DNA of 64,000 nucleotides. Source: an uncultured Polaribacter sp. Lineage in GTDB: Bacteria > Bacteroidota > Bacteroidia > Flavobacteriales > Flavobacteriaceae. Positions 42,988-59,982 of the stretch are shown piece after piece. The notes under the pieces are model-generated. The model had not been told where the DNA came from, ran no database searches, and was given only the letters and a program-made list of their open reading frames with translations. A program made the translations under genes and the position numbers. The stretch covers positions 62,001-126,000 of the forward strand of contig CANMHT010000007.1 in NCBI GenBank assembly GCA_947497755.1. Reading direction: 5' to 3'. The first letter of the stretch is position 1. Each line of letters starts with the position of its first letter.

Positions 42988-43566
42988 ATGAAATTAAAAG
43001 ATATACTTTATTTAATTATTGCTGTTTTGGGATTAGCTGTTCTATGGCTTTTTGATGATAAGAAGAAAAGAGCTATTAAAACGAATCGTATTATTAAACG
43101 CCTAAGAAAAGAAAATAATGATATAAAAAAGGCTTATTTAGGTCTGTTAGAAAAATATTTAAAAGCACAACAAAATGTTGATGTTGGAATTATTACAGAA
43201 TTACAAAAGCTTAAACAATCTATAGATAATTTAGACTACACAGTTCATATAGAGTTAGAATCTGTTATTGTTAATTTAAATGAAGGTAAAACCAGTGAGG
43301 CAATTAGAGTGTTGGCTAAAGTAGTGGAAAGTAAATTAAAAGAAAAAGTAACCAATGATGAATCTTTTAAAGGTAAACCAATGCTACATAATTTATTAAA
43401 CCATGCAAAAAAATGTAATTGGTTAAATTCAAGACAATTTGAAAATGCAATGCTTTTAAAAGAGTTAAGAAATAAAGAAAGTCATGAATTAGATGTTCAG
43501 GAAGAAACTAAAAATTTAGGACTAACTATCTTTTCAGGAATTGATTTAATCTACACTTTAAAATAA
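42988..43566 (+). CDS. Membrane-anchored HEPN-like protein (operon gene 4)
   Basis: A 192-residue protein: one N-terminal membrane helix (DILYLIIAVLGLAVLWLF, about 5-22), a coiled-coil-prone segment (30-80) and a helical C-terminal domain with RNKESH (R161-x4-H166), the HEPN RNase motif, within MLLKELRNKESHELD. The predicted topology leaves the catalytic end in the cytosol. Its stop overlaps the start of the TIR-like gene by 1 base (TAATG), so translation is coupled and the two probably act together as effector and sensor. Confidence 0.65.
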   Translation: MKLKDILYLIIAVLGLAVLWLFDDKKKRAIKTNRIIKRLRKENNDIKKAYLGLLEKYLKAQQNVDVGIITELQKLKQSIDNLDYTVHIELESVIVNLNEGKTSEAIRVLAKVVESKLKEKVTNDESFKGKPMLHNLLNHAKKCNWLNSRQFENAMLLKELRNKESHELDVQEETKNLGLTIFSGIDLIYTLK

Positions 43567-46500
43567 TGGAATATCGTATTTTCTATTCATACCAATCAGA
43601 CTCGCCAAAACAGATAAATGAACAATTTGTAGAGAATGCCATTAATACAGCTATAAAAAAAATTAAGGGCGCGAAGATTAAACTCATAAAGGGCTTTAGA
43701 AGAATTTCTGGTCAAAAACCTTTAGCAGATACTATGCTTGACCAATCTGAGTCTTCAGATATTTTTATTGGTGATGTTACGTTCACATCCGAAAGGGGAA
43801 AGTCTGACAGGAAGTCGATAACATGGTTTAAGAAGCATCAATTTATTTTAAGAAACTTACATGAAGTTAAGAGTTCTCCTAATCCTAATGTTCTAATAGA
43901 AACAGGTTATTCATGGGCAAAAAAAGACTACGACAGAACGATTTTGGTAATGAATGAGGCATTTGGTTCTCCCGAAGAATTACCTGTAGACATGGGACAC
44001 TTGCGCTGGCCAATAACTTATAGTCTACCTGAATCTCATAACAAAGAAGATCATGATAGAGAATTTAATCAGTTAGTAGATGATTTAAAAAACGCCATTG
44101 TAGCTGCACTTAAAACTACTAGAATATACCATAGGGATAGGTTTAAGCCTTTTAAACAGCATGATGTTTGGAAAAGTTCTGATTTTGATAAAAAGTTAAT
44201 TGTTTCAGATGAATTAAAAACGGTTGTGAGCAATCTTAGAAACGCATTATCTACATCTGAAAATCCTCAAAGACTATTAGGTCCAAGTAAATCTGGGAAA
44301 ACACGTATTGCTAGAGAATTATATAGAAAAATAGACCCAACTTTAAAAAGAGATGAAGAATCTTTAGAAAAAGTATTGTACTATGATTTAAGTACTTCGG
44401 GTTATGGACATATAGAAGTACAATTACAAGATATAAGAGATTTAAATCAAGACTACATTGTTATTGTAGATAATTGCCCTTATAGGATTCACAAGAATCT
44501 ATGTGATGAGTTACAAGGAACAAACGTAAGAATCTTAACAATTGCAAGTACAGATCAAACAGACATAGAGGATCAAGGAACAATTAGTCTAAGTGATACA
44601 TATTCAAGTGATATAATTAAAATAGGTGTTGAGAAAAGGTTTAAAAACTCAAGTATAATCTCAAATATTGTTCAAGAATCAGGATCGAATATTGAAAAAG
44701 CTATAACATATATTTCTTCTAATATTACGGATCAAGATATTATCACACCTGAATATTCAGAAAGATGGAAACAACTATTAGGAGTTGAATTGCTTGAAGA
44801 AGGTGCTTTAAATATTTTAGAAGAACTATCACTCTTTTCGCATATTGGAATCAATAATCAATATGTAGAGCATTCGCATTTTATTGTATCCAATTTATCT
44901 GAAATCGATATAGAAAAGTATCGGGTGCTTATATTAAAATTAGCCAATAGAGGTGTTATTAGAATAGTTGGTGATTTTATAGTTTTAAATTCATTTGTTG
45001 AGGAATTAGCATTTCAAAGAATCGGTAAATTCACAGGAGAACAATTTTCAGACTATGTTTTGAATGTCTCTAAATATAATCTCTCAAAACAATTTGGACA
45101 GCGACTTATTGAGTTAAACAAAGAGCCACAAGAAGGGTTAATAAACCATCTTATCGGTGATGATGGATTGCTAAGTGATTACAACTTTATTAATACTTCT
45201 CAAGGATCTGAGATAATATTTAAAATTTCAGAATTATTTCCTTTAGAAATAGGAGAACTTCTCACTAAAGAATTAAACCAGAAGAGTATTGATGAGTTAA
45301 AAGAATTCAAATTAGGTCGTAGAAATATAGTTTGGTGTTTAGAAAAGTTAGCGCTAATAAAAGAAACTAGTAAAGAAGCTGCAAAACTATTATTTAGATT
45401 AGCCCTTTCAGAAAATGAATCGATAGCAAATAACGCTACAAAGGCTTTTGTTCAAATTTTTCAAGTATATCTTTCAGGTACAATAATGAGTCTTGACGAA
45501 AGATTTAAAGTTTTAATGGAGTTAAAAGGAGAGCACGTAAATAGCCGAATCGTATTATCTGCTCTCAATAAAGGCCTACAAGCTTCTAATTTCCACGGAC
45601 CTGTTAAAACTAGGGGAGCTGATAAAAAAGAACTAAAATCTTACGATCAAGAAAATAAGGGTATTAAACCAGATGAAAGAAATAAATACCAAAAAGATAT
45701 TATAGATGTTTTAGAACAGATAATGTTCAGTGAAGAGAAGTTAAGTTCAATTTGTAGGAAAATAATAATTAATCGTTTTCCTGAACAATATAAATTAGGA
45801 GCATCAGATAGAATAATTGCAACTATAAATAAGATTATAGAAAAAGATCAAGGTTTGTCTACAGAAATTAGACATGTATTTGAAAAAATGGTCTTATTGA
45901 AATTTGGTCTTCAAGAGCATAAGCTCAACGCAATAAATAAGCTTTTAGAAGACAATAAGCCTGTTAAAGATTTAGACAGATTAAAAGTTCTAGTTGTAGA
46001 AGCAACTTTTAAAAATATAGATACAGAACATGGTTGGAAAGACCTCGCAAAAGAAGAAGCTCAAGCTCTTGCTCAAGAATGGTTGGATTCAAATAATACA
46101 TGCTGGTTTAATAATTTAGATACTTTATTAAAAGGAAAGCAAAATCAAACTTTTGCTTTTGGTGAAAAGCTTGGAGAAACATATCAAGAAGATAATGACT
46201 TCATTAAAGAAATAGTTGGAACACTAAATAATATTCCTCTCGAAGAACAGAATATTGCTTTTGTAACTGGTTACATTCTTGGTAAAAAAGATGAGGTTTT
46301 TACTAGAAAAGTAATTGATAGTTTTTTGAATAAAAATACTCTGAAGTTTCATGCATTTAAACTAACACACTTCTTGCAAGTACAAGTAGAAGACATCCAA
46401 AAATTACTACCTGAATTAAATACTAATCCAACATTTATAAGAGCATTAGAATACATCAAGCTTAATCATTTAAATAATGAAGATATTATTAAAATAGTAG

Positions 46501-47288
46501 ATATGATATCAGTGACTCCTGAGTTTGGTAATGCATTTGCTCTTGAGTTATTATGGGAAGTATGTAGAAGTGAAGATAGATGGGATGGTCTAAAAGATAC
46601 AATTAAGCCACGTTTATTAAAGGAAGGTGTCTTGCGTAATAAAACTTTACTAGGCAGTATGTTGCATATAGAGGATTTAATTAAAAGACTAATTTCAGAT
46701 GGCTTAGAACAAGATGAAATAGCATTTTTTGTAAACGAAATACTTACAGACTATTCTGAGTTTAATGTATATAATGAAACGATTCTTAATAATCTCTTAC
46801 TTCATATGCTTGAGGTAGAGTATGATCTAGTTTGGCCACTGATAGGAGCAAAATTATTAGACACAAATTACTATGTAAATCACGACTTAAAAAGAATTCT
46901 ACAGTTTTATAAGTTTGATAGCGATAAACTTCTTACTTGGTGTCTAGCAAATTCACCTCTGAGAGCAATCAAAATGATTGGGATTGTTCCTATAGAAAAT
47001 AAAGGTGAGGATGGTGAATTAAAATGGACAGATCAAGCAAGTTTATTAATTGATAATTTTGGAGATAATGATGACTTCCTTTCGGTTTTAAGTTCAAGGA
47101 TGAGAAACTATACTGTAATGGGGTCAGCCGTTCCAATATATGAGGCAAGGAAGAAATTGATGAGTAGTTTGTTGGGTCATGAGAAAAATAAAGTTCAAAC
47201 TTTTGCTAAAGAACAAATAGAAATGATTAATATATACATTGCTAGAGAGCAAAACTCTGACAGCAATTATGAACTGGGAGAAATTTAA
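43566..47288 (+). CDS. TIR-like / P-loop / helical-repeat protein, candidate immune sensor (operon gene 5)
   Basis: A 1240-residue protein. Residues 1-185 resemble the TIR-like, nucleoside-2-deoxyribosyltransferase-like domain of bacterial defence proteins (RIFYSYQSDSPKQINEQFVE; candidate catalytic Glu in NPNVLIETGYSWA, about E112). A P-loop NTPase follows: Walker A GPSKSGKT (239-246) and Walker B YIVIVDN (D302). From about 430 on it is helical repeats (SIANNATKAFVQIFQ and others), the STAND-like sensor layout. STAND proteins detect phage molecules and trigger an effector, here possibly NAD+ cleavage. No signal peptide. Domain order is clear; biological role is inferred. Confidence 0.7.
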   Translation: MEYRIFYSYQSDSPKQINEQFVENAINTAIKKIKGAKIKLIKGFRRISGQKPLADTMLDQSESSDIFIGDVTFTSERGKSDRKSITWFKKHQFILRNLHEVKSSPNPNVLIETGYSWAKKDYDRTILVMNEAFGSPEELPVDMGHLRWPITYSLPESHNKEDHDREFNQLVDDLKNAIVAALKTTRIYHRDRFKPFKQHDVWKSSDFDKKLIVSDELKTVVSNLRNALSTSENPQRLLGPSKSGKTRIARELYRKIDPTLKRDEESLEKVLYYDLSTSGYGHIEVQLQDIRDLNQDYIVIVDNCPYRIHKNLCDELQGTNVRILTIASTDQTDIEDQGTISLSDTYSSDIIKIGVEKRFKNSSIISNIVQESGSNIEKAITYISSNITDQDIITPEYSERWKQLLGVELLEEGALNILEELSLFSHIGINNQYVEHSHFIVSNLSEIDIEKYRVLILKLANRGVIRIVGDFIVLNSFVEELAFQRIGKFTGEQFSDYVLNVSKYNLSKQFGQRLIELNKEPQEGLINHLIGDDGLLSDYNFINTSQGSEIIFKISELFPLEIGELLTKELNQKSIDELKEFKLGRRNIVWCLEKLALIKETSKEAAKLLFRLALSENESIANNATKAFVQIFQVYLSGTIMSLDERFKVLMELKGEHVNSRIVLSALNKGLQASNFHGPVKTRGADKKELKSYDQENKGIKPDERNKYQKDIIDVLEQIMFSEEKLSSICRKIIINRFPEQYKLGASDRIIATINKIIEKDQGLSTEIRHVFEKMVLLKFGLQEHKLNAINKLLEDNKPVKDLDRLKVLVVEATFKNIDTEHGWKDLAKEEAQALAQEWLDSNNTCWFNNLDTLLKGKQNQTFAFGEKLGETYQEDNDFIKEIVGTLNNIPLEEQNIAFVTGYILGKKDEVFTRKVIDSFLNKNTLKFHAFKLTHFLQVQVEDIQKLLPELNTNPTFIRALEYIKLNHLNNEDIIKIVDMISVTPEFGNAFALELLWEVCRSEDRWDGLKDTIKPRLLKEGVLRNKTLLGSMLHIEDLIKRLISDGLEQDEIAFFVNEILTDYSEFNVYNETILNNLLLHMLEVEYDLVWPLIGAKLLDTNYYVNHDLKRILQFYKFDSDKLLTWCLANSPLRAIKMIGIVPIENKGEDGELKWTDQASLLIDNFGDNDDFLSVLSSRMRNYTVMGSAVPIYEARKKLMSSLLGHEKNKVQTFAKEQIEMINIYIAREQNSDSNYELGEI

Positions 47289-48042: not shown

Positions 48043-48897
48043 ATGTGTACAATTCCTATTAGAAAAATAAACGCAATTAGCAATGCTTTTGCTTTTCAAG
48101 AACGTTTCTTTATTCAGAGTTTATCTGATAAAATTGGAGATGTACCAATGGTTGAAGAACTGCATAGACATGATTTCTTTTTTATTTTAGTGTTACAAAA
48201 TGCTTCTGGAGAACATGAAATTGATTTTAAATCTTATACAGTTAAAGATCATACACTCTTTTTTATCAAACCCGGACAAGTACATCAGTTAGTATTACAA
48301 CCCAACAGCAAAGGTTATTTACTACATTTTAGTGCCGATGCTTATCATGCAAACAACACAAAGAAAAGTGCCTTACTTAATAAAGTAGCCAACCAAGATT
48401 CTTACGAAGTTTCCTCATCTTATTTTGAAACTATTTTCCCTTTATTTACTGCTATTTACGAAGAGTTTACTCATAAAAAACAAGGCTATATAGAAATTAT
48501 TAGAGCCAACTTAAACATTTTATTTACAAAATTAGTACGTGATTTTCACAACTCTAATCCAACACAAAACAATTATAACCAAGAGCGCTTGGAAGCGTTT
48601 TTACAACTATTAGAAACATCGATTGCTCATAAAAAACGGGTATCAGAATATGCTGCCATGATGAATTTATCTGTGTATCAACTCAACAACATTGTAAAAT
48701 CTACATTAGGCAAAACTTGTTCAGAAATTATCAAAGAACAAATTATTTTAGAGGCAAAAAGATATTTGTTAGTCACTTCTAACCAAATATCTCAAATTGC
48801 GTTAACATTGGGATATGAAGATATTTCCTACTTTATTCGCTTCTTTAAAAAGCAAACTGGATACTCACCAAATAGTTTTCGTCAAAACTTTAAATAA
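48043..48897 (+). CDS. AraC-family transcriptional regulator
   Basis: A 284-residue protein: cupin-like N-terminal sensor (HRHDFFFILVLQNASGEHEIDF, FFIKPGQVHQLVL) and C-terminal AraC helix-turn-helix pair (about 180-284: AAMMNLSVYQLNNIVKSTLGKTCSEI and IALTLGYEDISYFIRFFKKQTGYSPNSFR). The 19-bp gap to the methyltransferase-like gene upstream suggests a shared transcript. The gene downstream is a possible target. Effector unknown. Confidence 0.88.
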   Translation: MCTIPIRKINAISNAFAFQERFFIQSLSDKIGDVPMVEELHRHDFFFILVLQNASGEHEIDFKSYTVKDHTLFFIKPGQVHQLVLQPNSKGYLLHFSADAYHANNTKKSALLNKVANQDSYEVSSSYFETIFPLFTAIYEEFTHKKQGYIEIIRANLNILFTKLVRDFHNSNPTQNNYNQERLEAFLQLLETSIAHKKRVSEYAAMMNLSVYQLNNIVKSTLGKTCSEIIKEQIILEAKRYLLVTSNQISQIALTLGYEDISYFIRFFKKQTGYSPNSFRQNFK

Positions 48898-48992
48898 ATA
48901 CTATTTAACTTCGGTTTTGTCCTACAGCAAACCCTAATTCTTGCTATAATTTTGTCGGAAAACAATTTCGTTTTCAATAAAAAAAAAGACAA

Positions 48993-49490
48993 ATGCATAT
49001 CATTATAAAAACAATTCTTGTAGGTGTTGGCGCTACTTTTGCCATGGATATTTGGAGCTTTATTTTAAGCGTTTTCAACATCAAATCTTTAGACTATCGT
49101 TTTGTAGGTAGATGGATTGGAAATATGCCTAATGGACAATTCTTTCATAAAAACATTAGCAATAGTGCACCTATAAAAAGTGAACTGATTATTGGTTGGG
49201 CAGCTCATTATTCCATTGGAATTTGTTTTGCTTTTTTAATGCTAGCTATTTACGGAAAAAGCTGGTTTGAAAAACCTTATTTATTTCCTGCATTAGTTAT
49301 TGGTATTACTACAATTATTGCCCCTTTTTACTTAATGCAACCTGCATTTGGTTTTGGATTGGCAGGAGCAAACTTTCCTGAGCCAAATAGTGTACGCTTA
49401 AAAAGCTTTATGGCACATCTTGTATACGGAATAGGGCTCTACGCTACGGTAGTACTTATTAATTTTCTGATTTCTAAAATAACTTCATAA
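48993..49490 (+). CDS. DUF2938 membrane protein
   Basis: A 165-residue integral membrane protein with four hydrophobic segments, resembling DUF2938 (family blocks GRWIGNMPNGQF, AAHYSIGICFAFL and FGFGLAGANFPEPN). It follows the AraC regulator after 95 bp. Function unknown; the neighbouring regulator may control it. Confidence 0.75.
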   Translation: MHIIIKTILVGVGATFAMDIWSFILSVFNIKSLDYRFVGRWIGNMPNGQFFHKNISNSAPIKSELIIGWAAHYSIGICFAFLMLAIYGKSWFEKPYLFPALVIGITTIIAPFYLMQPAFGFGLAGANFPEPNSVRLKSFMAHLVYGIGLYATVVLINFLISKITS

Positions 49491-49495
49491 AGAGC

Positions 49496-49876
49496 TTATG
49501 CGAAGCAAGTTTCGCACTTTCCTTGAATTAAAATTTGAGATATCATCACTTCTCTATTCGGAATCTTAGGCATCAAAACATCTACAGATAAGCAATCTAC
49601 TTTTCCGCAATCTGTACATTGAAAATGTGGATGCAAATCTTTGTGTTCTGTTGATGAGCAACCATTACATTTTGCATACCATTTTACCCCATTTACTCCT
49701 AAGAATGAATGCAAAACACCATCATCTTCTAACCTAGTTAATACACGATAAATGGTGGTTTTATTAAATCTTACTCCTAATCGCTGAATCAATTCTACCG
49801 CAGAAATTGCCTCTGAACTATTTTCAAACTCCTTTAGCAATGCTGCTACAGATTGTGTCTTTCTAATTATTCCCAT
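49496..49876 (-). CDS. Fur-family regulator, probably Zur-like
   Basis: Start at 49876 (MGIIRKTQSVAALL) preferred over 49894. The 126-residue product has a winged helix (RFNKTTIYRVLTRLEDDG) and C-terminal zinc cysteines in two pairs (CTDCGKVDC and CETC). The gene is divergent from a MerC operon and their shared 80-bp region contains two matching palindromes. The pattern suggests metal-dependent repression of both directions. Zinc is the favoured metal because GTP cyclohydrolase I, a zinc enzyme, is in the operon; iron cannot be excluded. Confidence 0.85.
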   Translation of the reverse strand: MGIIRKTQSVAALLKEFENSSEAISAVELIQRLGVRFNKTTIYRVLTRLEDDGVLHSFLGVNGVKWYAKCNGCSSTEHKDLHPHFQCTDCGKVDCLSVDVLMPKIPNREVMISQILIQGKCETCFA

Positions 49877-49889
49877 AGAACAAAAATAA

Positions 49890-49904
49890 CACAACTATGT
49901 TGCA
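49890..49904. promoter_or_regulatory. Fur/Zur-type box 1
   Basis: CACAACTATGTTGCA matches box 2 at 11 of 15 positions and is an imperfect palindrome (CAAC...GTTG). It covers the TTG -33 region of the MerC promoter and lies 14 bp before the fur start, so one site can serve both genes. Confidence 0.6.
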
Positions 49905-49921
49905 ATAACAAATTAAACTTC

Positions 49922-49929
49922 TATATTTG
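49922..49929 (+). promoter_or_regulatory. -7 promoter element of the MerC/folE operon
   Basis: TATATTTG, exact TAnnTTTG, with TTG (49900-49902) 19 bp upstream. Box 2 begins at its last two bases. Confidence 0.7.
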
Positions 49930-49942
49930 CAACTTAGTTGCA
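49928..49942. promoter_or_regulatory. Fur/Zur-type box 2
   Basis: TGCAACTTAGTTGCA is a perfect 6-3-6 palindrome that overlaps the -7 element and covers the start point. With box 1 (38 bp centre to centre) it would block polymerase when the repressor is metallated. Confidence 0.7.
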
Positions 49943-49958
49943 TTAACTATACATTATA

Positions 49959-50363
49959 ATGAACATAATCCTAAAAAAATCGGATACCTTTGGAGCTTTG
50001 GCAAGTATGTTATGCTTAATTCATTGCATTGCTACGCCATTTATTTTTATCGTACATACTTGTTCGCTGGGTGGTTGCTCCACTACTCCAACTTGGTGGC
50101 AAAGCATTGACTATTTATTTTTAGTTATTTCTCTAATAGCCATATATCATTCTACAAAAAATACCTCAAGTAGATTTATTAAACCATTCTTTTGGGGCTT
50201 TTGGATCTTACTTTTGATGGTTATTGTCAATGAAAAGTTGAGTTGGATTTCAATACCAGCTTACTCAATTTACATTCCTGCTATTGCACTCATTATACTT
50301 CATGTATACAACCTAAAATATTGTCAATGTAAAAACGATAAATGCTGCGTAAAAAATGAATAA
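49959..50363 (+). CDS. MerC-family small membrane protein
   Basis: A 134-residue protein with four membrane segments and early conserved residues LASMLCLIHCIATPFIF, typical of MerC-like proteins in Bacteroidota (not necessarily mercury resistance). A His-Cys motif and the C-terminal CQCKNDKCC could bind metal. It is the first gene behind the double palindrome, and overlaps folE by 8 bp. A role in metal homeostasis is likely from context; transport is not shown. Confidence 0.78.
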   Translation: MNIILKKSDTFGALASMLCLIHCIATPFIFIVHTCSLGGCSTTPTWWQSIDYLFLVISLIAIYHSTKNTSSRFIKPFFWGFWILLLMVIVNEKLSWISIPAYSIYIPAIALIILHVYNLKYCQCKNDKCCVKNE

Positions 50364-51009
50364 AAAACAGGTAGAAATAATTGGAGATAGTCATATCTCT
50401 TTAAATACAGAAACTCCTTTACGAAAAGATGCTTTTGATACATCTGATGAAGAGAAAATCAAAAATATTCAGAAACATTTTGCATCAATAATGGAAGAAT
50501 TGGGTTTGGATTTATCAGATGATAGCTTATCTGGAACTCCATATCGTTTTGCAAAGATGTATGTAAAAGAACTTTTTTACGGCTTAAACCCCAAAAATAA
50601 ACCTACACTTTCCACTTTTGAGAATAAATACGGCTATAAAAAAATGCTTATTGAGCAAGATATCACTATAGATTCTTCTTGTGAACATCATTTTTTACCA
50701 ATTATAGGAACTGCCCATATTGCTTACATTCCAAAAGACAAAGTTATCGGACTTTCAAAAATAAATCGACTAGTAGATTATTACGCACATCGTCCTCAGG
50801 TACAAGAAAGATTGTCTATTCAAATTCTTAAAGATTTACAAAACACTTTAGAAACTGAAGATGTTATTGTAATGATTACCGCCAAACATTTGTGTGTCTC
50901 ATCAAGAGGAATTAAAGATAAAAATAGTGCCACAACCACTATAGAATACGGAGGCTGTTTTAATGACGCTACCATAAGAAATGAATTCTTAAACACAATT
51001 AATAACTAA
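50356..51009 (+). CDS. folE: GTP cyclohydrolase I
   Basis: A 217-residue enzyme that makes dihydroneopterin triphosphate, first step of folate/pterin synthesis. Zinc ligands are C109 and H112 in DSSCEHHF, and the later Cys in AKHLCVSSRG; the catalytic blocks (TPYRFAKMY, SKINRLVDYYAHRPQVQERL) are present. Many bacteria carry a zinc-regulated folE paralogue beside Zur; this copy sits in an operon with two Fur-type boxes upstream. Another folE elsewhere in the genome is possible. Confidence 0.93.
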   Translation: MNKKQVEIIGDSHISLNTETPLRKDAFDTSDEEKIKNIQKHFASIMEELGLDLSDDSLSGTPYRFAKMYVKELFYGLNPKNKPTLSTFENKYGYKKMLIEQDITIDSSCEHHFLPIIGTAHIAYIPKDKVIGLSKINRLVDYYAHRPQVQERLSIQILKDLQNTLETEDVIVMITAKHLCVSSRGIKDKNSATTTIEYGGCFNDATIRNEFLNTINN

Positions 51010-51020
51010 AAATTATAACC

Positions 51021-51488
51021 ATGATTACAAAACAAGAAGTATTAAATGCCCAAGAACAATGGGGACAAGGTGTTGTTAAAATCGGAAGTTTAAAAGACAA
51101 CAGAGCAGAATGTGAACGTTTTGCTAGTGATTTTTTAGACAAACAATATGCTTTTGAACAAGGAGCGGTTTTATTTAAACCTACAAAATGTAGCGAGCAA
51201 CAATTTAGAGGTCTTAAACAAGAAGCCCTATCTTATTTTATTGCTGGTGATGATAGAGCATGCCAAGAAGATAAAGGATTTGCTATTCAACCTTGGACAA
51301 AAGTACGTTTTGAAAATTTTCATTTGATTTTAGAAAACAATCGTGCTATTGCTATGGGGAACTATTTTTTTACAGATACCAATGGAGATGAAGCTAAAGT
51401 AGAATATACTTTTGGATATCAATTAATTAATGGCGAATTAAAGATTGACCTACATCATTCATCTTTTCCTTACAATCCAGAGGCTTAA
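51021..51488 (+). CDS. SnoaL/NTF2-like protein
   Basis: A 155-residue soluble protein with the alpha+beta cone-like sequence pattern of NTF2-like proteins (IKPTKCSEQQFRGLK-type loop and GNYFFTDTNGDEAKVEYTFGYQL near the end). Some Bacteroidota homologues carry the label phosphoribosyl-AMP cyclohydrolase, which I doubt because the HisI motifs are absent. It lies 11 bp after folE and belongs to that operon. Function unknown. Confidence 0.65.
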   Translation: MITKQEVLNAQEQWGQGVVKIGSLKDNRAECERFASDFLDKQYAFEQGAVLFKPTKCSEQQFRGLKQEALSYFIAGDDRACQEDKGFAIQPWTKVRFENFHLILENNRAIAMGNYFFTDTNGDEAKVEYTFGYQLINGELKIDLHHSSFPYNPEA

Positions 51489-51493
51489 AAACA

Positions 51494-51988
51494 ATGCATA
51501 ATACGCTATTTCTTTTATGTCCAACAGATGGATTAGAACCTAAAATTCTAAAGAGCTTTAAAGGCAAAAACTACTTTTATTGCTCTTTAGGTAATTCTTT
51601 TAATTCTGATGTAGAAACTATAGAACATATAAAAGCTTTTATCATTAAAAATGATATTTCAAGTGTTTGCTTTATTACTTCTATGAATAACAAAATCATT
51701 CTTGATGCCTTAGGAAAGCAATACTATTCTGACATTAGAGGATTACGAACATTCTACAACCAAATACGAATACATAAAAGACAAATAGAAAAACTATGCT
51801 TAACCAATAACTACAATTACTCTATTCTTTCTTATTTTCTTAACAAAAAGATAAAAGAACTAGAGTATAAATTAGGTAATTTAGCCCAACCTCTTCTTAT
51901 AAGAGGAATGATTTATAACAGGCAAAAGAATACTTTTCAAAACATTTATTCTAGTCTTATTTGTTTGGAAGAACATGTCTTAAATTAA
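51494..51988 (+). CDS. Hypothetical protein in folE operon
   Basis: A 164-residue protein, unrecognised. The N-terminal half looks like an alpha/beta fold with alternating hydrophobic strands (TLFLLCPTDG, YFYCSLGNSF, SSVCFITSMNNKIILDALG) and the C-terminal half is helical and basic. Gaps of 5 bp upstream and 6 bp downstream place it in the operon. Co-regulation with folE suggests a metal or pterin link, nothing stronger. Confidence 0.6.
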   Translation: MHNTLFLLCPTDGLEPKILKSFKGKNYFYCSLGNSFNSDVETIEHIKAFIIKNDISSVCFITSMNNKIILDALGKQYYSDIRGLRTFYNQIRIHKRQIEKLCLTNNYNYSILSYFLNKKIKELEYKLGNLAQPLLIRGMIYNRQKNTFQNIYSSLICLEEHVLN

Positions 51989-51994
51989 CAGTTG

Positions 51995-53680
51995 ATGAAA
52001 TACAATAGAAGAAAGTTTATTTCCTTTTTAGGAAAAGCAAGTTTAGGAGTAGCTATTGCTCCACCATTTTTAATTTCTTGTGGGAATACAACTACACCAA
52101 ACAAAATTACTAGTCAAAAAAAATCTAAAGAAGAACTTCTTAGATTAAAAAAATTAGTTTTAGAAGAATTGATTGCTACAGATAAAGATGATCTAATACT
52201 AACCAAAGGGCTAAATTACCATACTATTATAAAATGGGGAGATGCAATTAATCCTGAAGATACTTTTGGATTTAATAACGATTTTACTTGCTTTATTCCT
52301 TTAGATGAAAACAATCCAAATGATGGTTTGTTATGGGTAAATCATGAATATATCAATCCGTTATTTGTTTCTGATTTTGATTTTAATGCCTATAAAAACC
52401 CAAAGCAACACCGAACTATTGAACAGGTAGACAAAGAAATGTACAATGTTGGTGGTACTATTGTAAGAATTAGGCAAGAGAATGGCCAATGGAAAATCGT
52501 TAAAAATGATCCTTTAAACCGAAGAATTACTGCGCAAACACCCATCTCTTTAAATTGGGATACTCCAATTAAAGGAGCATCTACCGTTAGAGGAACCAAT
52601 AGCAATTGCTCTGGAGGAATTACTCCTTGGAATACCTTTATTACTTGTGAAGAAAACTATGATGGCTTTTGGGGAGAAACCGAATACAACGAACAAAATA
52701 TTGCATCACATAGAGCTAGTGATTATGGATGGGAAGATTTTTACAAGTATCCGCCAGAACATTATGGATGGGTTGTTGAAGTAGATCCAAAAAGTGGGAA
52801 TGCTCAAAAACACATTGCGCTAGGAAGGTTTGCTCATGAATGTTGTACTTTATATGAGTTAGAAGACAAACGTGTTGTTGCTTATACTGGCGATGATAAA
52901 AATGATGAATGTTTGTACAAATTCATTTCTTCAAAACAAGGTTCTTTAAAAGAAGGTACATTGTATGTTGCAGATACTGTGAATGGTAAATGGCTGGCTT
53001 TAGATTGGGAAAATCAACCGCAGTTAAAAAAGAAATTTAAAAATCAAACTGAGGTTTTGATTAGAGCAAGAGAAGCAGCTAAACTACTTGGAGCAACGCC
53101 TTTAAACAGACCAGAAGATATTGAAATTGATCCAATTACTGGACATATTCTAGTTACACTAACAAATAATAAAAATAAAAACGACTATCACGGATCCATT
53201 TTAAAAATTGAAGAAACAAATGGAAAATTTGATGCCCTAACTTTTAAAGCTTCAACTTATAAAGCTGGAGGTGAAGAAAGTGGCTTTTCTTGTCCAGATA
53301 ATTTAGCTTTTGATTTGGCTGGAAATCTTTGGATGACTTCTGACATGTCTGGAAGCTCAATGAATAGAGAAGACAAACCTTATATGCCTTTTAAGAACAA
53401 TAGTTTATTTGTGATTCCGAGATATGGTAAAGATGCAGGAAAAGTAATTCGAGTTGCCTCAGCACCAAGAGATGCAGAGTTAACCGGACCTTGGTTTTCT
53501 CCTGATGGAAAAACATTGTTTTTAAGCGTACAACATCCTGGAGAGCAAACAAAAGATTTAAAAAATCCAACCAGTAAATGGCCTTTTGACCAAGATAATA
53601 TTCCGAAATCTGCTGTGGTAGCAATTACTGGAGATTTGATAGAAAAAATGAATGTCTTACATCATATCGAAGCCGAATAA
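51995..53680 (+). CDS. PhoX-family (DUF839) phosphatase-like protein, Tat-exported
   Basis: A 561-residue protein (ATG 51995; TTG 51992 is also in frame). The N-terminus NRRKFISFLGKASLG fits a twin-arginine signal with a following lipoprotein-like Cys (FLISC). The body carries PhoX blocks: ITPWNTFITCEENYDGFWGE, YGWVVEVDP, GRFAHECC, TPLNRPEDIEIDP, FSCPDNLAFD, LTGPWFSPDGKTLFLSVQHPG. PhoX enzymes use Fe3+ and Ca2+ to hydrolyse phosphate esters in the periplasm. It is the sixth member of the operon or an independent end gene (6-bp gap). Activity on phosphate esters is inferred. Confidence 0.85.
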   Translation: MKYNRRKFISFLGKASLGVAIAPPFLISCGNTTTPNKITSQKKSKEELLRLKKLVLEELIATDKDDLILTKGLNYHTIIKWGDAINPEDTFGFNNDFTCFIPLDENNPNDGLLWVNHEYINPLFVSDFDFNAYKNPKQHRTIEQVDKEMYNVGGTIVRIRQENGQWKIVKNDPLNRRITAQTPISLNWDTPIKGASTVRGTNSNCSGGITPWNTFITCEENYDGFWGETEYNEQNIASHRASDYGWEDFYKYPPEHYGWVVEVDPKSGNAQKHIALGRFAHECCTLYELEDKRVVAYTGDDKNDECLYKFISSKQGSLKEGTLYVADTVNGKWLALDWENQPQLKKKFKNQTEVLIRAREAAKLLGATPLNRPEDIEIDPITGHILVTLTNNKNKNDYHGSILKIEETNGKFDALTFKASTYKAGGEESGFSCPDNLAFDLAGNLWMTSDMSGSSMNREDKPYMPFKNNSLFVIPRYGKDAGKVIRVASAPRDAELTGPWFSPDGKTLFLSVQHPGEQTKDLKNPTSKWPFDQDNIPKSAVVAITGDLIEKMNVLHHIEAE

Positions 53681-53783: not shown

Positions 53784-54077
53784 GTGAAAACTTATAAGCA
53801 ATATATAGCCCTATTTTATCTGATATTTTTTATCGGTATAAAATCTGTTGGACTACACGCATTTGCTCATTCTGATACTGAATTTGACAATGACTGTGAT
53901 GTTTGTGAGTTTACCATTAGCTCTAAAAAAGTTCCTTTTATTAAAAATCAACAATTTGAATTAAAAGAACTTTCAGAGCATAATCATCAAGAGAAGACTT
54001 TTGTTGCTTATACCTATCAATTTACACAACAACAAATAGATAACACCCTTTTTTGCAGACCTCCGCCTGTAATTTAA
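53784..54077 (+). CDS. Small exported protein, unknown
   Basis: A 97-residue protein starting at GTG 53784, with signal peptide (YIALFYLIFFIGIKSVGLHAFA) and a mature region with one CxxC (CDVCEF) and several His (HNHQ). Its metal-ligand-rich composition fits the surrounding metal-linked genes. A 104-bp gap separates it from the PhoX-like gene. Start and function uncertain. Confidence 0.5.
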   Translation: MKTYKQYIALFYLIFFIGIKSVGLHAFAHSDTEFDNDCDVCEFTISSKKVPFIKNQQFELKELSEHNHQEKTFVAYTYQFTQQQIDNTLFCRPPPVI

Positions 54078-54197: not shown

Positions 54198-56417
54198 ATG
54201 ATATCTAAAGCATTAATTAAAAATTGCCCAATGGCAGTTTTTATGATTGTTCTTATAAAAGGATATTCTCAGAACAAACAAGAGGTCTTTCCACCTCCTA
54301 CTTTTCCTCCAGAAATAAAAGCTGTAAAAACTACTGGAAAAATAAAAATAGACGGCATTTTAAACGAAACTAGTTGGCAACATGCTCAAACAATTTCTAA
54401 CTTTTATAGAATTGAACCCAAACAAGGCGGAAACTATTTATACACCACAGAAGTAAAAGTACTCTACGATAAAAAGAACCTCTACATTGGAGCATTTTGC
54501 AAAGACACTTTAGGCAAAAAAGGAATACGTGTTCAAGATTTAAAACGAGACTTCAGTTATGGTGAAAACGATGTTTTTGGTGTTCAAATAGATGCACAAA
54601 ACACAAAACAATACGCTGTTTCATTTCAAACTACACCTTATGGAAACCAACGTGATTTACAAGTGTTTAATGGTAGCAACAAAGATCTTGATTGGAATAC
54701 TTTATGGAATGTAAAAACTTCTCGTACAAAAAATGGCTATTATGCTGAGTTTTCTATTCCCTTTAAATCTCTTCGTTATCTACTCTCTAAAGACCATAAA
54801 AATTCTGATTGGGGCATTACTTTTTTTAGATTGGCAAGAAGAAATTATGAACTCACTGTTTTTCCTAAGATTCCACAAGCTTTTGGACCACATAGAATGA
54901 CTTATGCCGCTAAATTGAGAAATTTAGAAGCACCAAAGCCTTCTACCAATATGCAAATTACACCTTATGTTCTTTACAATTACGATATACAAAAAGAAGG
55001 CACAAGAACCATCAATAAAGACAACTCTTCAAAAATTGGTGGAGACCTTAAATGGGCAGTAACTCCAAATGCTGTTGTGGATGTAACTTTTAATACAGAT
55101 TTTGCACAAGCAGATGTTGATAGAGCTGTAAATAATTTAGAGCGGTTTAATGTTTTTTTTCCTGAAAGAAGGCAATTTTTCTTAGAAAACTCAGGAATTT
55201 GGGCTGGCGCAAATAACTCACAAATAAAACCTTTTTTTAGTAGAACAATTGGCTTAAAAGGAAATTTCAATGCAGCTCCAGCTCCAATAGACTTTGGAGG
55301 ACGATTTACCAACAAAACAAAAAAGAATACACTTGGAGCTTTATACGTGAAACAACGTAGTACAAGTAATAGTCCAGATACTCATTTTAGCGTACTTCGT
55401 TATACTCAAAACTACGGAAAAGAAAATAATATTGGATTAATGGTTACTCATCGACTAGATGAAAAAAGCAATAGTTCTGCGCTATCTAACAATACAACTA
55501 TAACCCTAGATGGTTTGATTCGTCCAAAGCAAGAATGGACTATTTCTTATTTAGGATCTGCATCTAAAGATGAAGCAAAAAATTCTTGGGGCTATTCAGG
55601 TTCTTTTTCTGCCAAATACAATACCAATACAATGTATTGGGGATGGCAATCTAACTTTGTAAGTCGCAATTACAATCCTGCTATGGGATTTGTGTATCAA
55701 AAAGATGTGATACAACACAATCCTGGTGGGTATTTTATTTTACGACCAAAAAAATTACAATGGATTAGACGTTGGGATCCTGGAGTATTTGTTCGTTATT
55801 ATCACGATTTTCAAAACCCTTCCAACTTTCAACAAGCAAGTATTTATTTGTTTCCGATTTACATCTTTTTTAGAGATAATAGTTTTGTAGAATATGCGAT
55901 TACTCCCACTTGGCAAAACATTAATTTTAACTTTTCTCCATTAGGAATAGCAATTCCACAAAAAAGATATTTCTATACTAGGCAATTTATTAGATACAAT
56001 TCTGATCGTTCTAAAAAACTTTCTGTCTCTGGAAAGTTTGAATGGGGTAATTTTTACAATGGAAAACGGACTACCTTAACTGCTGGTATACGTTATGCGC
56101 CAATACCAAATGTTAGTTTTTCTACTGATTACGAAAACAATTCGTTAAAAAAGTTAGGGAATTTAAACCAGAACTTAGATACAAATTTATATGCTGCTGG
56201 TATTCGATTGGCATTGAACCCAAAAGTACAATTATCTGGATTTTACCAGTACAATGATTTTACAAAAACTGGAAGGATCAACACAAGATTTAGCTGGGAA
56301 TATTTACCTCAGTCTTTTATCTATCTTGTGTATAATGATACTGAAATGGAATCTTTTAATCCTATAAGAACTCAACAACAATTTATAAGTAAAATAACTT
56401 TTGTTAAACAATTTTAA
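54198..56417 (+). CDS. DUF5916 outer-membrane protein with CBM9-like domain
   Basis: A 739-residue exported protein. After the signal peptide comes a CBM9-like/DOMON domain (about 40-215: GKIKIDGILNETSWQHAQTI, TEVKVLYDKKNLYIGAFCKD) and then a long DUF5916 region with barrel-like strands to the end. The N-terminus (MISKALIKNCPMAVFMIVLI) is a reasonable signal. It precedes the ABC exporter by 16 bp, and may share a transcript with it. Ligand unknown. Confidence 0.82.
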   Translation: MISKALIKNCPMAVFMIVLIKGYSQNKQEVFPPPTFPPEIKAVKTTGKIKIDGILNETSWQHAQTISNFYRIEPKQGGNYLYTTEVKVLYDKKNLYIGAFCKDTLGKKGIRVQDLKRDFSYGENDVFGVQIDAQNTKQYAVSFQTTPYGNQRDLQVFNGSNKDLDWNTLWNVKTSRTKNGYYAEFSIPFKSLRYLLSKDHKNSDWGITFFRLARRNYELTVFPKIPQAFGPHRMTYAAKLRNLEAPKPSTNMQITPYVLYNYDIQKEGTRTINKDNSSKIGGDLKWAVTPNAVVDVTFNTDFAQADVDRAVNNLERFNVFFPERRQFFLENSGIWAGANNSQIKPFFSRTIGLKGNFNAAPAPIDFGGRFTNKTKKNTLGALYVKQRSTSNSPDTHFSVLRYTQNYGKENNIGLMVTHRLDEKSNSSALSNNTTITLDGLIRPKQEWTISYLGSASKDEAKNSWGYSGSFSAKYNTNTMYWGWQSNFVSRNYNPAMGFVYQKDVIQHNPGGYFILRPKKLQWIRRWDPGVFVRYYHDFQNPSNFQQASIYLFPIYIFFRDNSFVEYAITPTWQNINFNFSPLGIAIPQKRYFYTRQFIRYNSDRSKKLSVSGKFEWGNFYNGKRTTLTAGIRYAPIPNVSFSTDYENNSLKKLGNLNQNLDTNLYAAGIRLALNPKVQLSGFYQYNDFTKTGRINTRFSWEYLPQSFIYLVYNDTEMESFNPIRTQQQFISKITFVKQF

Positions 56418-56433
56418 ACCAAAAAACACCTTT

Positions 56434-57147
56434 ATGATAACTACCAAAAACATCACCAAAAAATACGGAGACTTTACCGCTGTAAACAACCTTTCATTTG
56501 AAGTAAAGTCTGGAGAAATACTATGTCTTCTTGGCGCAAATGGTGCAGGAAAATCTACCACCATCAACATGCTATTAAACTTTATCAAACCAAGCTCTGG
56601 TAATGCATTTATTAACGGTTTGGATGTGGTTAAAAACCCTATCAAAACAAAAAGTTTCTTAACCTATATTCCAGAAAACTTAATGCTATACCCTACTTTA
56701 AGTGCTGTTGAGAATTTAGATTATTTCACCAAACTTTCTGGTAAAAATTTTACTAGTAATGAATTAAAATCATTCTTAACACAAGCAGGTTTACAAACTG
56801 AAGCACATGACAACAGAGTAAAAACTTTTTCTAAAGGAATGCGTCAAAAAGTAGGAATCGCTTTGGCAATTGCTAAAGAATCTAAAGTATTATTATTAGA
56901 TGAGCCTACTTCTGGATTGGATCCAAAATCTAGCAATGAGTTTATGGAACTCTTAACCAAAATGAAAAACAATGGTGTTGCAATTTTAATGGCTACCCAT
57001 GATTTATTTAGAGCAAAAGAAGTAAGTACTCATATCGGAATTATGCGCTCTGGTGTATTAGAAAACTATTCCAATACCAATGATGTTTCTTTAAAAGAAT
57101 TGGAAACAATTTATTTAGATATTATGAACTTTAAAAATGTTGGTTAG
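56434..57147 (+). CDS. ABC transporter ATP-binding protein
   Basis: ATG at 56434 preferred; an upstream in-frame start (56401) overlaps the end of the preceding gene and adds no conserved residue. 237 residues with Walker A GANGAGKST, signature TFSKGMRQKVG, Walker B VLLLDEPTSG and switch His in ATHDLFRA. Followed by two DUF3526-type permeases, it is the ATPase of a three-gene exporter. Confidence 0.92.
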   Translation: MITTKNITKKYGDFTAVNNLSFEVKSGEILCLLGANGAGKSTTINMLLNFIKPSSGNAFINGLDVVKNPIKTKSFLTYIPENLMLYPTLSAVENLDYFTKLSGKNFTSNELKSFLTQAGLQTEAHDNRVKTFSKGMRQKVGIALAIAKESKVLLLDEPTSGLDPKSSNEFMELLTKMKNNGVAILMATHDLFRAKEVSTHIGIMRSGVLENYSNTNDVSLKELETIYLDIMNFKNVG

Positions 57148-57148
57148 T

Positions 57149-58552
57149 ATGAAAAGCATCATATTTAAAGAATTAAAAGAGATACGTAGAGATGGGCGTT
57201 TTAAAATAGCCATGGGTATTGTTGTTCTCTTATTAATTATTGCGTCAATTACAGGTATTAATCAATATCAAAAGAACAACCAACAATATAAAGAATCTCT
57301 AAATAAGGAACGTAGCATTTGGGAAACACAAGGAGAAAAAAATCCACATTCTGCAGCACATTATGGCACCTATGCTTTTAAACCAAAATTTGCCTTGTCT
57401 TTATTTGATTATGGAATTACAAAATATACTGGAAATTCTATCTTTTTAGAAGCACATAATAGACACGAAGCTTCATTTAGTGAGGCAAGTGACCAAACTA
57501 GTTTAGCTCGTTTCGGAACACTTTCTATCAATTTTGTTTTGATGTATTTATTTCCTCTAATTATCATTCTAATAGGTTATAATGCATACACTAAAGAGGT
57601 AGAAAACAGAACTTTTACCATGTTAAAAAGTCAAGGAGTGCATCCAATAAAACTTGCTTTAGGGAAATGGATTGCGACTTTTATTCCAATATTTATTTTA
57701 ACAAGTATTATTTTTCTAATCATTGGATTGGTTTTATCGAGTTTAGAAAGTTTTTCTTTTTTTAGTTGGACAAGTTTAGGAGTACTTTTTATTTCGTATG
57801 TCTTTTACTATTTAATCATTACAAGTATTACCATCTTAATTTCGATGTGGAGTCGTTCTTCTGGAATGTCTTTAGTTAACAGTTTGGTTATTTGGATTTT
57901 CTTTAGTTTTATTACACCAAAAATCGCTACAAATTTTGCCAATGGAAATCATCCTTATCCATCAAAATCAGAATTTAGTGAACGTATAGCTGCTGACAAG
58001 AAAAATGGATTGGATGGGCATAATCCTTGGAATAAAGCTGCAAAAAAGTTAGAACAAGAAACATTAAAAAAATACGGTGTAGATAGTATTCACAAACTTC
58101 CTTTTAATTATGCGGGTTATCGAATGCAAAAAGGAGAAGAACATGAAGCGAAAATTTATGAAAAGCATTATAACATTTTAAATGATATCGCTTTAAAACA
58201 AAACAGCGTTTATAAAAACTTGTCTTTTATCTCTCCTTTTATTCCTGTTAGATTTTTCTCAATGGACATAGCAAATACTAGTGATGTTTTACATTGGAAA
58301 TTTACCAAAGCTGCAGAAAAGTATCGTATAGAAAAGCAACAGTTTCTAAATTACGATATCAAAGACAATTCTAAATATGGAGAGCGCGGTTACAAAATGA
58401 GCGCTGAAAAGTTTAAAAAACTACCTAAGTTTAATTTTACTCCTCCTTCATTGTCAGAAATTATTAAAGAAAATACACAAAACATTGTCTTTTTACTTTT
58501 ATGGCTAGCACTTCCTTTAGGAGGTATTCTAATTACTTCTAAAAAAATATAA
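57149..58552 (+). CDS. ABC transporter permease with large periplasmic domain (DUF3526-type), first
   Basis: ATG at 57149 (MKSIIFKELKEIRRDGRF). 467 residues: one membrane segment near the N-terminus (IVVLLLIIASIT), a periplasmic region, then five membrane segments in the middle (NFVLMYLFPLIIILIGY, FIPIFILTSIIFLI and others) and a second periplasmic region rich in Lys before the final segment (FLLLWLALPLGGIL). It overlaps nothing but starts 1 bp after the ATPase stop. Paired permease with the next gene. Confidence 0.85.
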   Translation: MKSIIFKELKEIRRDGRFKIAMGIVVLLLIIASITGINQYQKNNQQYKESLNKERSIWETQGEKNPHSAAHYGTYAFKPKFALSLFDYGITKYTGNSIFLEAHNRHEASFSEASDQTSLARFGTLSINFVLMYLFPLIIILIGYNAYTKEVENRTFTMLKSQGVHPIKLALGKWIATFIPIFILTSIIFLIIGLVLSSLESFSFFSWTSLGVLFISYVFYYLIITSITILISMWSRSSGMSLVNSLVIWIFFSFITPKIATNFANGNHPYPSKSEFSERIAADKKNGLDGHNPWNKAAKKLEQETLKKYGVDSIHKLPFNYAGYRMQKGEEHEAKIYEKHYNILNDIALKQNSVYKNLSFISPFIPVRFFSMDIANTSDVLHWKFTKAAEKYRIEKQQFLNYDIKDNSKYGERGYKMSAEKFKKLPKFNFTPPSLSEIIKENTQNIVFLLLWLALPLGGILITSKKI

Positions 58553-58557
58553 TCATC

Positions 58558-59982
58558 ATGTTTACAAACAATTTAAAATACGAATTAAAACTATTAATAC
58601 GAAGTAATTGGCTTATACTTATTCTACTTAGTATTACTTTACTATTTACGTTTGCAATCTATAATGGAAATAGCAATGTTTCTAAAAGAGAAAATGATAT
58701 TGCTAAAATGAAAGCAGCACTGGCTAAAAAAGACAGTCTAATGCTAGCAAACCTTACCAACATTGAAAAAGGTGAAAAAGTAGATATTCCTTATTGGAGA
58801 ATGCCTACAGAACCTATGACTATTGGATATCGTCATCCTAGATTAGCTATTATGCAGCCGCATGAATTGTCTTTTATTGCTACAGGACAAAGTGATATGT
58901 ATACCCACTTTAAAAGTCCAACCGTATATGGTAATAATTTTGCCTTAGATTATTCTGAAATGGTGAATCCTGTACAATTACTCTTTGGTAATTTTGATTT
59001 AGCCTTTGTTATTATTTACATCTTACCATTGCTAATTATTGCTTTTACTTTTAACGTTTTATCAAAAGAAAAAGAATTAGGAACCTTGCGTTTATTAGGA
59101 GCACAACCAATTTCGGTGATACGTTGGTTATTGCAAAAAATTAGCATTCGATTTCTAATTTTTTCTGTAATCGTTATCGTTGTTTTATTAATAAGTATTT
59201 TTAGTACAACCACTATTCATAATGCTACAGATTTAATAGGATTACTTTTTATGGTAGTCGGATATATTTTATTTTGGTTTGCACTTGCTTGTATTGTGAA
59301 TATCAAAATAAACGATTCTTCTAAAAATGCCTTAACTTTAATAGGATTATGGTTACTTATTGTGATGGTTATCCCTGCAACAATTAACCAAATAGGAAAC
59401 TCAATGTATCCTACTCCTTCTCGTTTAAAAATGATTAATGAAATTCGTTTGATTAAAAAAGAGAATGAAGAAAAGCAAAACGAAATCCTTAATGAATATT
59501 TAAGAAATCATCCAGAGTTTGCTCAAGAAAATGAAAAACAAAAGTTTGGCTTCTGGCACAATTATTTTGCTTCAGAAAAAGTAATGGAAGAAAAAACCAA
59601 ACCTTTGTTAGCTTCTTACGATATTCAATTACAAAAACAGCAAAACTTAATTAGCACATTTAAATACATCTCACCTGCTATATTAATGCAAGAATCATTA
59701 AATAATATTGCAGGAACTTCTGAAAAGCATTATAACGATTATAAAAAACAAGTTGTAGAATTTTCTGATGAATGGAGAAACTATTTAGTACCAATGCTGT
59801 TTAAGAAACAAAAGTTTAATTTGAAAGCTTATAATGACATGCCAGCATTTGTTTACAAAAACAGAATTAAAAACAGTATTTGGATCCATTTAGCGGCAGT
59901 AATTGGAGTTAGTATTCTATTATTTTTAGGTTTTGTAGGGAAGAACCTAAAAGACAAATCAGCTCAAAAACTATCATTATAA
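58558..59982 (+). CDS. ABC transporter permease with large periplasmic domain (DUF3526-type), second
   Basis: 474 residues with the same layout as the preceding permease: N-terminal segment (WLILILLSITLLFTFAI), central membrane bundle (FVIIYILPLLIIAFTFNVLS, FLIFSVIVIVVLL, GLWLLIVMVIPAT) and a C-terminal segment (IHLAAVIGVSILLFLGFVG). Gap of 5 bp to the upstream gene. The pair forms the exporter channel with the ATPase; exported substrate unknown. Confidence 0.85.
   Translation: MFTNNLKYELKLLIRSNWLILILLSITLLFTFAIYNGNSNVSKRENDIAKMKAALAKKDSLMLANLTNIEKGEKVDIPYWRMPTEPMTIGYRHPRLAIMQPHELSFIATGQSDMYTHFKSPTVYGNNFALDYSEMVNPVQLLFGNFDLAFVIIYILPLLIIAFTFNVLSKEKELGTLRLLGAQPISVIRWLLQKISIRFLIFSVIVIVVLLISIFSTTTIHNATDLIGLLFMVVGYILFWFALACIVNIKINDSSKNALTLIGLWLLIVMVIPATINQIGNSMYPTPSRLKMINEIRLIKKENEEKQNEILNEYLRNHPEFAQENEKQKFGFWHNYFASEKVMEEKTKPLLASYDIQLQKQQNLISTFKYISPAILMQESLNNIAGTSEKHYNDYKKQVVEFSDEWRNYLVPMLFKKQKFNLKAYNDMPAFVYKNRIKNSIWIHLAAVIGVSILLFLGFVGKNLKDKSAQKLSL

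Follow-up and report, generated by a model that had tools for sequence, protein, structure and literature searches.

A predicted Zur-type operon with an iota-carbonic anhydrase of the metal-free type behind twin Fur-type boxes in Polaribacter

Within a 64-kb stretch of Polaribacter DNA (the whole stretch analysed, 64,000 nucleotides, is referred to here as the window), we identified an operon that is, with good probability, Zur-controlled and zinc-sparing, its metal-free carbonic anhydrase covering for the zinc-dependent one. Carbonic anhydrase (CA) has long been taken to be a metal enzyme everywhere—here, predicted boxes in many genomes connect a metal-free class with the sensing of zinc. The gene at the center of this arrangement, encoding an iota-carbonic anhydrase (iota-CA), recurs in box-fronted zinc clusters across Bacteroidota. 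Moreover, in a hand-picked sample of genomes, iota-CA copies lying off this switch go with the absence of the zinc enzyme.

Results

Twin boxes over the merC promoter

An earlier note on this DNA had placed two Fur-type boxes at 49890-49942, assigning box 1 to the -33 and box 2 to the -7 element of the MerC/folE promoter, in a region shared with a divergent Fur-family gene. Our analysis bears out this layout: against the box pattern TGCAACnnnGTTGCA, box 2 matches perfectly and box 1 with two mismatches. The elements involved are:

49496-49876, minus strand: Zur-like Fur-family repressor; the ATG start gives 126 aa, and translation could also begin at a TTG at 49894
49890-49904, no strand assigned: box 1, CACAACTATGTTGCA, a 15-bp palindrome with two mismatches, over the -33 element
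49900-49902, plus strand: -33 element TTG, read from the sequence, the arrangement being kept in relatives
49922-49929, plus strand: -7 element TATATTTG, read from the sequence and kept in relatives
49928-49942, no strand assigned: box 2, TGCAACTTAGTTGCA, a perfect 15-bp palindrome over the end of the -7 element and the probable start site

The merC promoter, divergent from the Fur-family gene, is composed of TTG, an N19 spacer and TATATTTG, which we take to be the Bacteroidota type of promoter. The -33 TTG lies inside box 1, the last two bases of the -7 element are overlapped by box 2, and the spacing from one box to the other is 38 bp—between three and four helical turns. A sigma-70 scan, the model of which does not cover the merC promoter type, returned 19 promoter-like sites vs 23.6 in shuffles.

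Matches with up to three mismatches number 22 in the window against 21.0 expected, no excess over chance; box 1 is therefore weak when taken alone, and the case for the boxes rests on the perfect box, the spacing and the conservation. The window has no perfect match besides box 2, and of 63,920 window positions just one, at the merC promoter, holds two boxes at a 38-bp spacing with four or fewer mismatches in total. The box pair is thus far beyond chance. A genome-wide search, which the earlier note had suggested, found three perfect boxes vs none for the reversed control pattern, with zinc-type genes behind the other two, and across 80 family genomes the perfect count was 40 (in 28 genomes) vs 4 for the control. 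At up to two mismatches, the whole-genome figures are 76 vs 51, so these looser matches are mostly due to chance.

Conservation of the boxes had been set beforehand as a point on which the proposal could fall, and they are kept: a box within two mismatches stands at 21 of the 24 MerC loci of the genus, the best box at the other three having 3, 4 and 5 mismatches. Both boxes lie exactly 38 bp apart, with at most three mismatches in all, at 12 of these 24 loci, and one further locus has them 37 bp apart with two mismatches. A MerC match was found in 23 of 58 genomes of the genus; the 24 loci are what remains of 26 rows once L045 and L046, additional but poor matches to MerC in G038, are removed, with L035, L042 and L044 (internal stop) retained. 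We put forward the pattern as a candidate Zur box for Bacteroidota.

Gene content of the operon

The genes downstream of the promoter are:

49959-50363, plus strand: MerC-family membrane protein (Pfam MerC, 72.1 bits against a cut-off of 27.6)
50356-51009, plus strand: FolE, GTP cyclohydrolase I of type IA (Pfam, 203 bits; TIGR00063 above cut-off)
51021-51488, plus strand: COG4337-type iota-carbonic anhydrase of the metal-free type (PDB 7c5x and 7c5v over its length)
51494-51988, plus strand: unk164, a 164-aa protein with a predicted beta-carbonic-anhydrase fold but without the usual zinc ligands (AlphaFold2, Foldseek)
51992-53680, plus strand: PhoX-type alkaline phosphatase (Pfam PhoX, 337.8 against 24 bits; PDB 4amf/3zwu)
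53784-54077, plus strand: 97-aa His/Cys-containing protein, a homologue of which heads the ABC block beside zur-merC-folE-iCA in locus L087
56401-59982, plus strand: ABC ATPase and two permeases, with an equivalent block in L087

From merC to phoX, the gene junctions consist of one 8-base overlap followed by gaps of 11, 5 and 3 bases. The labels MerC-like, folE and PhoX-like, given in the earlier note, agree with Pfam; two others were too vague, the 'NTF2-like' product being the iota-carbonic anhydrase and the 'unknown' one the protein with a predicted beta-carbonic-anhydrase fold.

We propose that the MerC-family protein may act as a zinc importer. Were it a mercury or toxic-metal resistance protein instead, the operon would be a metal-stress cassette—a reading that draws on the Pfam MerC domain itself and on RND metal-efflux-like genes (read by eye) near some perfect boxes in relatives, and that is nevertheless highly improbable, given that the identified neighbors are folate, CO2 and zinc-chaperone genes and that the regulator is of the Fur type rather than MerR. 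We thus set mercury resistance aside on gene content.

The genome has two FolE proteins, the other copy, on contig C1, being 59% identical. The FolE of the operon matches type I models rather than the zinc-independent FolE_IB type (FolE2) and keeps the metal-ligand motifs CEHH and HLC; since the zinc ligands are kept, it is not a zinc-free substitute, and this idea was rejected. PhoX phosphatase uses iron and calcium instead of zinc. A search for PF00245 returned no PhoA of that family in the genome, so PhoX is not a swap for PhoA, and this candidate explanation was likewise discarded. Downstream, the box pattern has no match within three mismatches between 50102 and 55347, so none precedes the 97-aa His/Cys protein, which is perhaps part of a linked zinc cluster; the ABC block at 56401-59982 may belong to the regulon. 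Elsewhere in the window, a 1240-aa ORF at 43566-47288, starting MEYRIFYSYQSD, possibly encodes a STAND-like defence protein.

The iota-carbonic anhydrase and its neighbor unk164

The product of 51021-51488 aligns with the solved metal-free members 7c5x (E 3e-85) and 7c5v (E 8.7e-30), and is, by homology and active site, a COG4337-type iota-carbonic anhydrase. Its residues T55, Y72, H145 and S147 align with Thr106, Tyr124, His197 and Ser199 of all2909 from Anabaena, shown by mutation to be important (PMC8132391), and all four are kept in 92 of 92 iota-CA sequences. Characterised members of this type require no metal. Against the equivalog model NF047901 of NCBIfam (MetIndCarbAnhdr), the protein scores 113 bits, below the curated cut-off of 350, and it is therefore not filed under that model.

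The AlphaFold2 model of unk164 has a mean pLDDT of 79.9 and a pTM of 0.75. With this model as the query, all 50 matches listed by Foldseek were carbonic anhydrases (best E 2.4e-6), while VIA-align gave a Z of 14.2 and an rmsd of 3.5 over 157 aligned residues for E. coli beta-carbonic anhydrase; of the 50 VIA-align matches listed, 48 were carbonic anhydrases and numbers 49 and 50 carbonyl sulfide hydrolase. The zinc ligands of beta-carbonic anhydrases are Cys, His and Cys. Across 26 unk164 sequences, the invariant residues are C9, P10, D12, E15, L32, G33, N66 and F148, with C9 the sole invariant Cys and no His invariant or nearly so; with one Cys and no His conserved, the usual Cys-His-Cys site is not preserved. 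Accordingly, unk164 is predicted to adopt a beta-CA fold but is not filed as a beta-CA. A profile-profile comparison with 13 beta-CAs was not significant (E 0.4), so common descent is not supported by sequence, and the sole connection between unk164 and the beta-CAs is the predicted fold. In addition, a PDB profile search gave no match with an E below 0.3 and none to a carbonic anhydrase, and a Pfam scan of the 26 members gave no family above cut-off, with stray weak matches in at most 2 of 26.

Of 299 family genomes, 16 carry unk164 (three as weak fragments only, two as broken or partial copies), and several of these are not among the 16 with iota-CA. In three box-fronted clusters, an LCIB-type carbonic anhydrase adjoins unk164 in place of iota-CA (L245:2097-2861, L247:4546-5259 and L248:4763-5527); the L247 and L248 proteins score about 170 bits with PF18599, and the L245 protein was read as a near-copy. 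With such LCIB-type neighbors, the link of unk164 extends to carbonic anhydrases beyond iota-CA, which offers a first clue to the function of an unnamed family with a beta-CA fold.

Further boxes and the Fur-family regulator

The second perfect box of the genome fronts a second MerC-like gene, a COG0523 GTPase, an ABC ATPase, a His-rich FtsX-type permease and a small protein. The third fronts a TonB receptor, divergent to which lie a DtxR-like gene (read from the sequence) and a ZIP transporter gene. Palindromes of the TTTTAGnC..CTAAAA type before the DtxR-like gene (L017:8420-8500) are likely this gene's own operators.

We also fetched 34 perfect-box loci from other family genomes (L213-L246). 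In 18 of them, the box adjoins a zur, merC, folE, cobW or TonB-receptor (tbdt) gene or its leader, and L245 adds an unk164 cluster; in the rest, the box stands before RND-like pumps, within other genes or at places without a label, so a perfect match need not be a Zur site. Predicted binding sites are found before zinc-homeostasis genes. Some of the neighborhoods deserve individual mention. At L220:3112-3570, a HisI (PRA-CH) paralogue and a COG0523 gene stand behind a perfect box divergent from zur. A MoaB/Mog-like molybdopterin-binding protein occurs beside COG0523 at L248:7443-7976, L088:9230-9763, L089:7603-8136 and L215:1602-2144, the scan having covered the L248 copy only. In L219, L236, L238, L239 and L240, large ORFs close to the perfect box look like RND metal-efflux pumps, a naming that in L236 and L238 is based on length and position only; L239 and L240 have a Cys-rich protein of 102-113 aa between the box and the RND-like ORF. 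Finally, eight box-like matches with a regular 32-bp step at L237:2969-3207 are probably an unrelated tandem repeat.

The FUR Pfam domain of the divergent regulator (30.5-31.5 bits against a cut-off of 23.1) confirms the Fur-family gene that the earlier note had placed there. No NCBIfam model reached its cut-off, the Fur and PerR models being listed far below theirs. The CxxC pairs of the structural zinc site are present (C87/C90 and C121/C124); C87xxC90, C121xxC124, H82, H84 and C95 are invariant in 14 of 14 aligned relatives, and C73 is kept in at least 90% of them. The five PDB matches are headed by 3mwm and 7vo0, both of which carry the label of putative metal uptake regulators; two of the others (2w57 and 8j6w) are ferric uptake regulators, and one, 2o03, regulates zinc uptake. 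When aligned with 3mwm, the residues C73, H82 and H84 are paired with Cys, His and His, the metal ligands of this Streptomyces Zur. The genome's only other Fur-family gene encodes a strong Fur (84.8 bits). That the regulator is a Zur is the most likely reading, since the other two perfect boxes front MerC plus COG0523 and the TonB receptor, and gene content together with the Cys-rich regulator points to zinc as the signal. Just beyond the zur gene, 48043-49490 holds an AraC-type regulator and a DUF2938 protein.

A regulator sensing another metal (iron, manganese) or peroxide, with an operon answering that signal, would be in keeping with the weak Fur-family score, with Fur and PerR as the sub-threshold NCBIfam matches, with the two ferric uptake regulators among the PDB matches, with the DtxR-like and ZIP genes opposite the boxed TonB receptor and with the iron of PhoX. 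We consider this improbable, however: the genome already has its separate Fur, the best PDB matches (3mwm and 7vo0) carry a metal uptake regulator label (a Streptomyces Zur), 2o03 is a zinc regulator and C73, H82 and H84 align with Cys, His and His of 3mwm. Moreover, the box targets—COG0523, FolE, MerC, TonB receptors and carbonic anhydrases—resemble known Zur regulons (PMC6103462). The reading of a zinc-limitation operon, first raised in the earlier note, is thus supported, the boxes being kept and fronting zinc-type genes elsewhere in this genome and in other Bacteroidota.

Iota-carbonic anhydrase loci in relatives

Among 299 family genomes, 16 contain iota-CA, the Polaribacter genome included. 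A scan of named genomes gave 560 relatives, of which the best 80 were used, so the relative set leans towards the query. Together with 15 family loci, this yielded 95 iota-CA loci, three of them duplicates (L066, L067 and L070), with the following neighbors: unk164 in 39, zur in 30, merC in 29, cobW in 28, folE in 24 and phoX in 8. The best box upstream of the iota-CA operon has no mismatch in 24 of 91 loci, one in 11, two in 5, three in another 5 and more than three in 46, so that 40 of the 91 have one with at most two mismatches. By comparison, the same loci offer 434 further upstream regions, of which 49 contain such a box, 33 of them before zur, cobW, tbdt or merC; those before zur are not independent counts, as they often lie in the same intergenic region as the box of the iota-CA operon.

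After removal of the duplicates and of L113, where no iota-CA ORF was called, scoring of the non-redundant loci (37 boxed and 50 unboxed, with four edge loci not scored) revealed zinc genes near 33 of 37 boxed vs 12 of 50 unboxed copies (Fisher p 1e-9), and unk164 near 27 of 37 vs 8 of 50. Twelve non-redundant loci thus have zinc genes nearby and yet no box by the rule used.

Plasmid records with iota-CA number 27; four of the five examined lack zinc-type neighbors, and none of the five has an annotated zur or COG0523 gene beside the proteobacterial iota-CA. In a Thioclava plasmid (L164:4675-6410), iota-CA is flanked by hisI and by the C-terminal piece of a tRNA ligase. As paralogues of HisI and ThrRS count among the Zur-type genes of PMC2770081, this locus is a possible proteobacterial zinc cluster. 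Separately, 10 of the 20 proteobacterial iota-CAs listed (H1, H2, H3, H7, H10, H11 and H13-H16) are annotated as phosphoribosyl-AMP cyclohydrolase, apparently a mislabelling.

Box state and the zinc carbonic anhydrase

The Polaribacter genome has one beta-CA, adjoining an ORF that we read from its sequence as a SulP-type transporter. We compared 25 of the 35 boxed loci of the named set with 25 unboxed ones, in a sample hand-chosen before the beta-CA search. The unboxed set comprised 24 of the 32 loci without zinc neighbors plus L128 (phoX near), all others of the class with zinc neighbors but no box being left out; in L106, another member of the sample, a COG0523 gene lies at a greater distance within the locus. 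The carbonic anhydrase counts cover beta-CA and alpha-CA only, in genomes of unstated completeness. In this hand-picked sample, 22 of 25 boxed vs 1 of 25 unboxed genomes carry a beta-CA (Fisher p 1e-9), the single unboxed one being a Hymenobacter (43.9 bits) and three boxed genomes giving no beta-CA match; alpha-CA occurs in 5 of 25 vs 0 of 25. Zur was found in 25 of 25 boxed and 13 of 25 unboxed genomes, and with Zur-positive genomes only, the beta-CA contrast is 22 of 25 vs 1 of 13 (p 2e-6).

This contrast could instead reflect lifestyle or phylogeny, with streamlined ocean lineages losing beta-CA and the regulation for unrelated reasons. We hold this to be somewhat unlikely, despite the fact that 24 of the 25 unboxed genomes measure at most 2.7 Mb, that Zur was not detected in 12 of the 25 and that the box label is clustered on the iota-CA tree (0 and 3 of 500 shuffles being as low). 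Among genomes of up to 2.7 Mb, beta-CA is still present in 5 of 7 boxed vs 0 of 24 unboxed ones (Fisher p 1e-4), and the tree has about 21 changes of box label, at least four of them forced by well supported branches, with the bootstrap not fully settled. Of ten edge-disjoint pairs, picked greedily on the FastTree tree, seven go in the predicted direction and none against it, with three ties. Since boxed and unboxed copies are mixed on the tree and seven pairs agree while none disagrees, it is probable that copies have moved on or off the switch more than once, and those off it go with absence of the zinc enzyme.

Discussion

The best reading of these patterns is that iota-CA may serve as a backup where the zinc enzyme exists and as a replacement where it has been lost. 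Repressor binding, a zinc signal, enzyme activity and a division of labor between the anhydrases would combine as follows. With ample zinc, the zinc-loaded Fur-family protein would bind both boxes, blocking the -33 and -7 elements of the merC promoter, and would probably shut its own promoter as well. Upon zinc shortage, the repressor would release the DNA, allowing MerC, the second FolE, iota-CA, unk164 and PhoX to be made. The metal-free iota-CA could then take over CO2 hydration while the housekeeping beta-CA is short of zinc, and metal-free hydration, PhoX and import together would relieve the demand for zinc. Several observations go against this zinc-sparing reading: the low Fur-family score with no NCBIfam model above its cut-off, the zinc ligands kept by FolE, the absence of a PF00245 PhoA, the presence of PhoX in just 8 of 95 loci, the 12 unboxed loci with zinc genes nearby, the three boxed genomes without a beta-CA match, the clustering of the box label on the tree and the lack of zinc-type neighbors in four of the five plasmid records examined.

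A wider version would make carbonic anhydrase in Bacteroidota a zinc switch with two metal-free parts under Zur, in which iota-CA copies off the switch replaced zinc CAs in zinc-poor ocean lineages and unk164 works in the same step, either by being a metal-free enzyme itself or by partnering a carbonic anhydrase. The occurrence of unk164 beside LCIB-type carbonic anhydrases where iota-CA is missing argues for the same step; as a whole, this version appears rather unlikely to us.

The reason why bacteria keep a metal-free carbonic anhydrase had so far been a guess, PMC8132391 proposing an advantage of COG4337 iota-CAs in metal-poor waters; our searches of the open-access literature turned up no regulator tied to the class. 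The terms 'Zur', 'regulon' and 'operon' have no occurrence in PMC8132391, nor does 'Zur' occur in PMC8395977 and PMC8425729. These three and PMC10383722 are the only papers naming COG4337 in the open-access collection searched, and we found no paper joining the metal-free iota class to Zur in the open-access literature. The analysis additionally suggests an evolutionary sequel—an apparent permanent replacement of the zinc CA in some, mostly small-genome, lineages.

Several elements of the operon have close counterparts. The iota-CA resembles the COG4337 enzymes of Anabaena (all2909) and Bigelowiella natans (Bn86287) through full-length homology and the catalytic Thr/Tyr/His/Ser residues (PMC8132391). 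The predicted fold of unk164 resembles beta-carbonic anhydrase over its length, whereas the protein differs from that family in having no conserved His, one conserved Cys and no significant sequence similarity. Zur regulons with spare carbonic anhydrases are known, and what is new is the membership of iota-CA and unk164 together with the evolutionary pattern. According to PMC2770081 and PMC6103462, the targets of Zur include COG0523 proteins, paralogues of FolE and TonB receptors, the first being an established companion of Zur (PMC2770081), and CA paralogues belong to Zur regulons as the gamma-CA 'Cam/can' in Pseudomonas and Cupriavidus and as YtiB in Bacillus subtilis; the texts of both contain neither 'Bacteroidetes' nor 'Flavobacteri'. 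The predicted Polaribacter regulon shares with these systems a backup CA, a FolE paralogue and a COG0523 GTPase under Zur (PMC2770081 and PMC6103462). However, the gamma-CA of Pseudomonas and Cupriavidus has been proposed in the same sources to be an iron enzyme, whereas the Polaribacter backup is of the metal-free iota class. Unlike the known Zur regulons, moreover, the operon described here adds PhoX and unk164—a protein with a predicted beta-CA fold and no zinc ligands—and does so in Bacteroidota.
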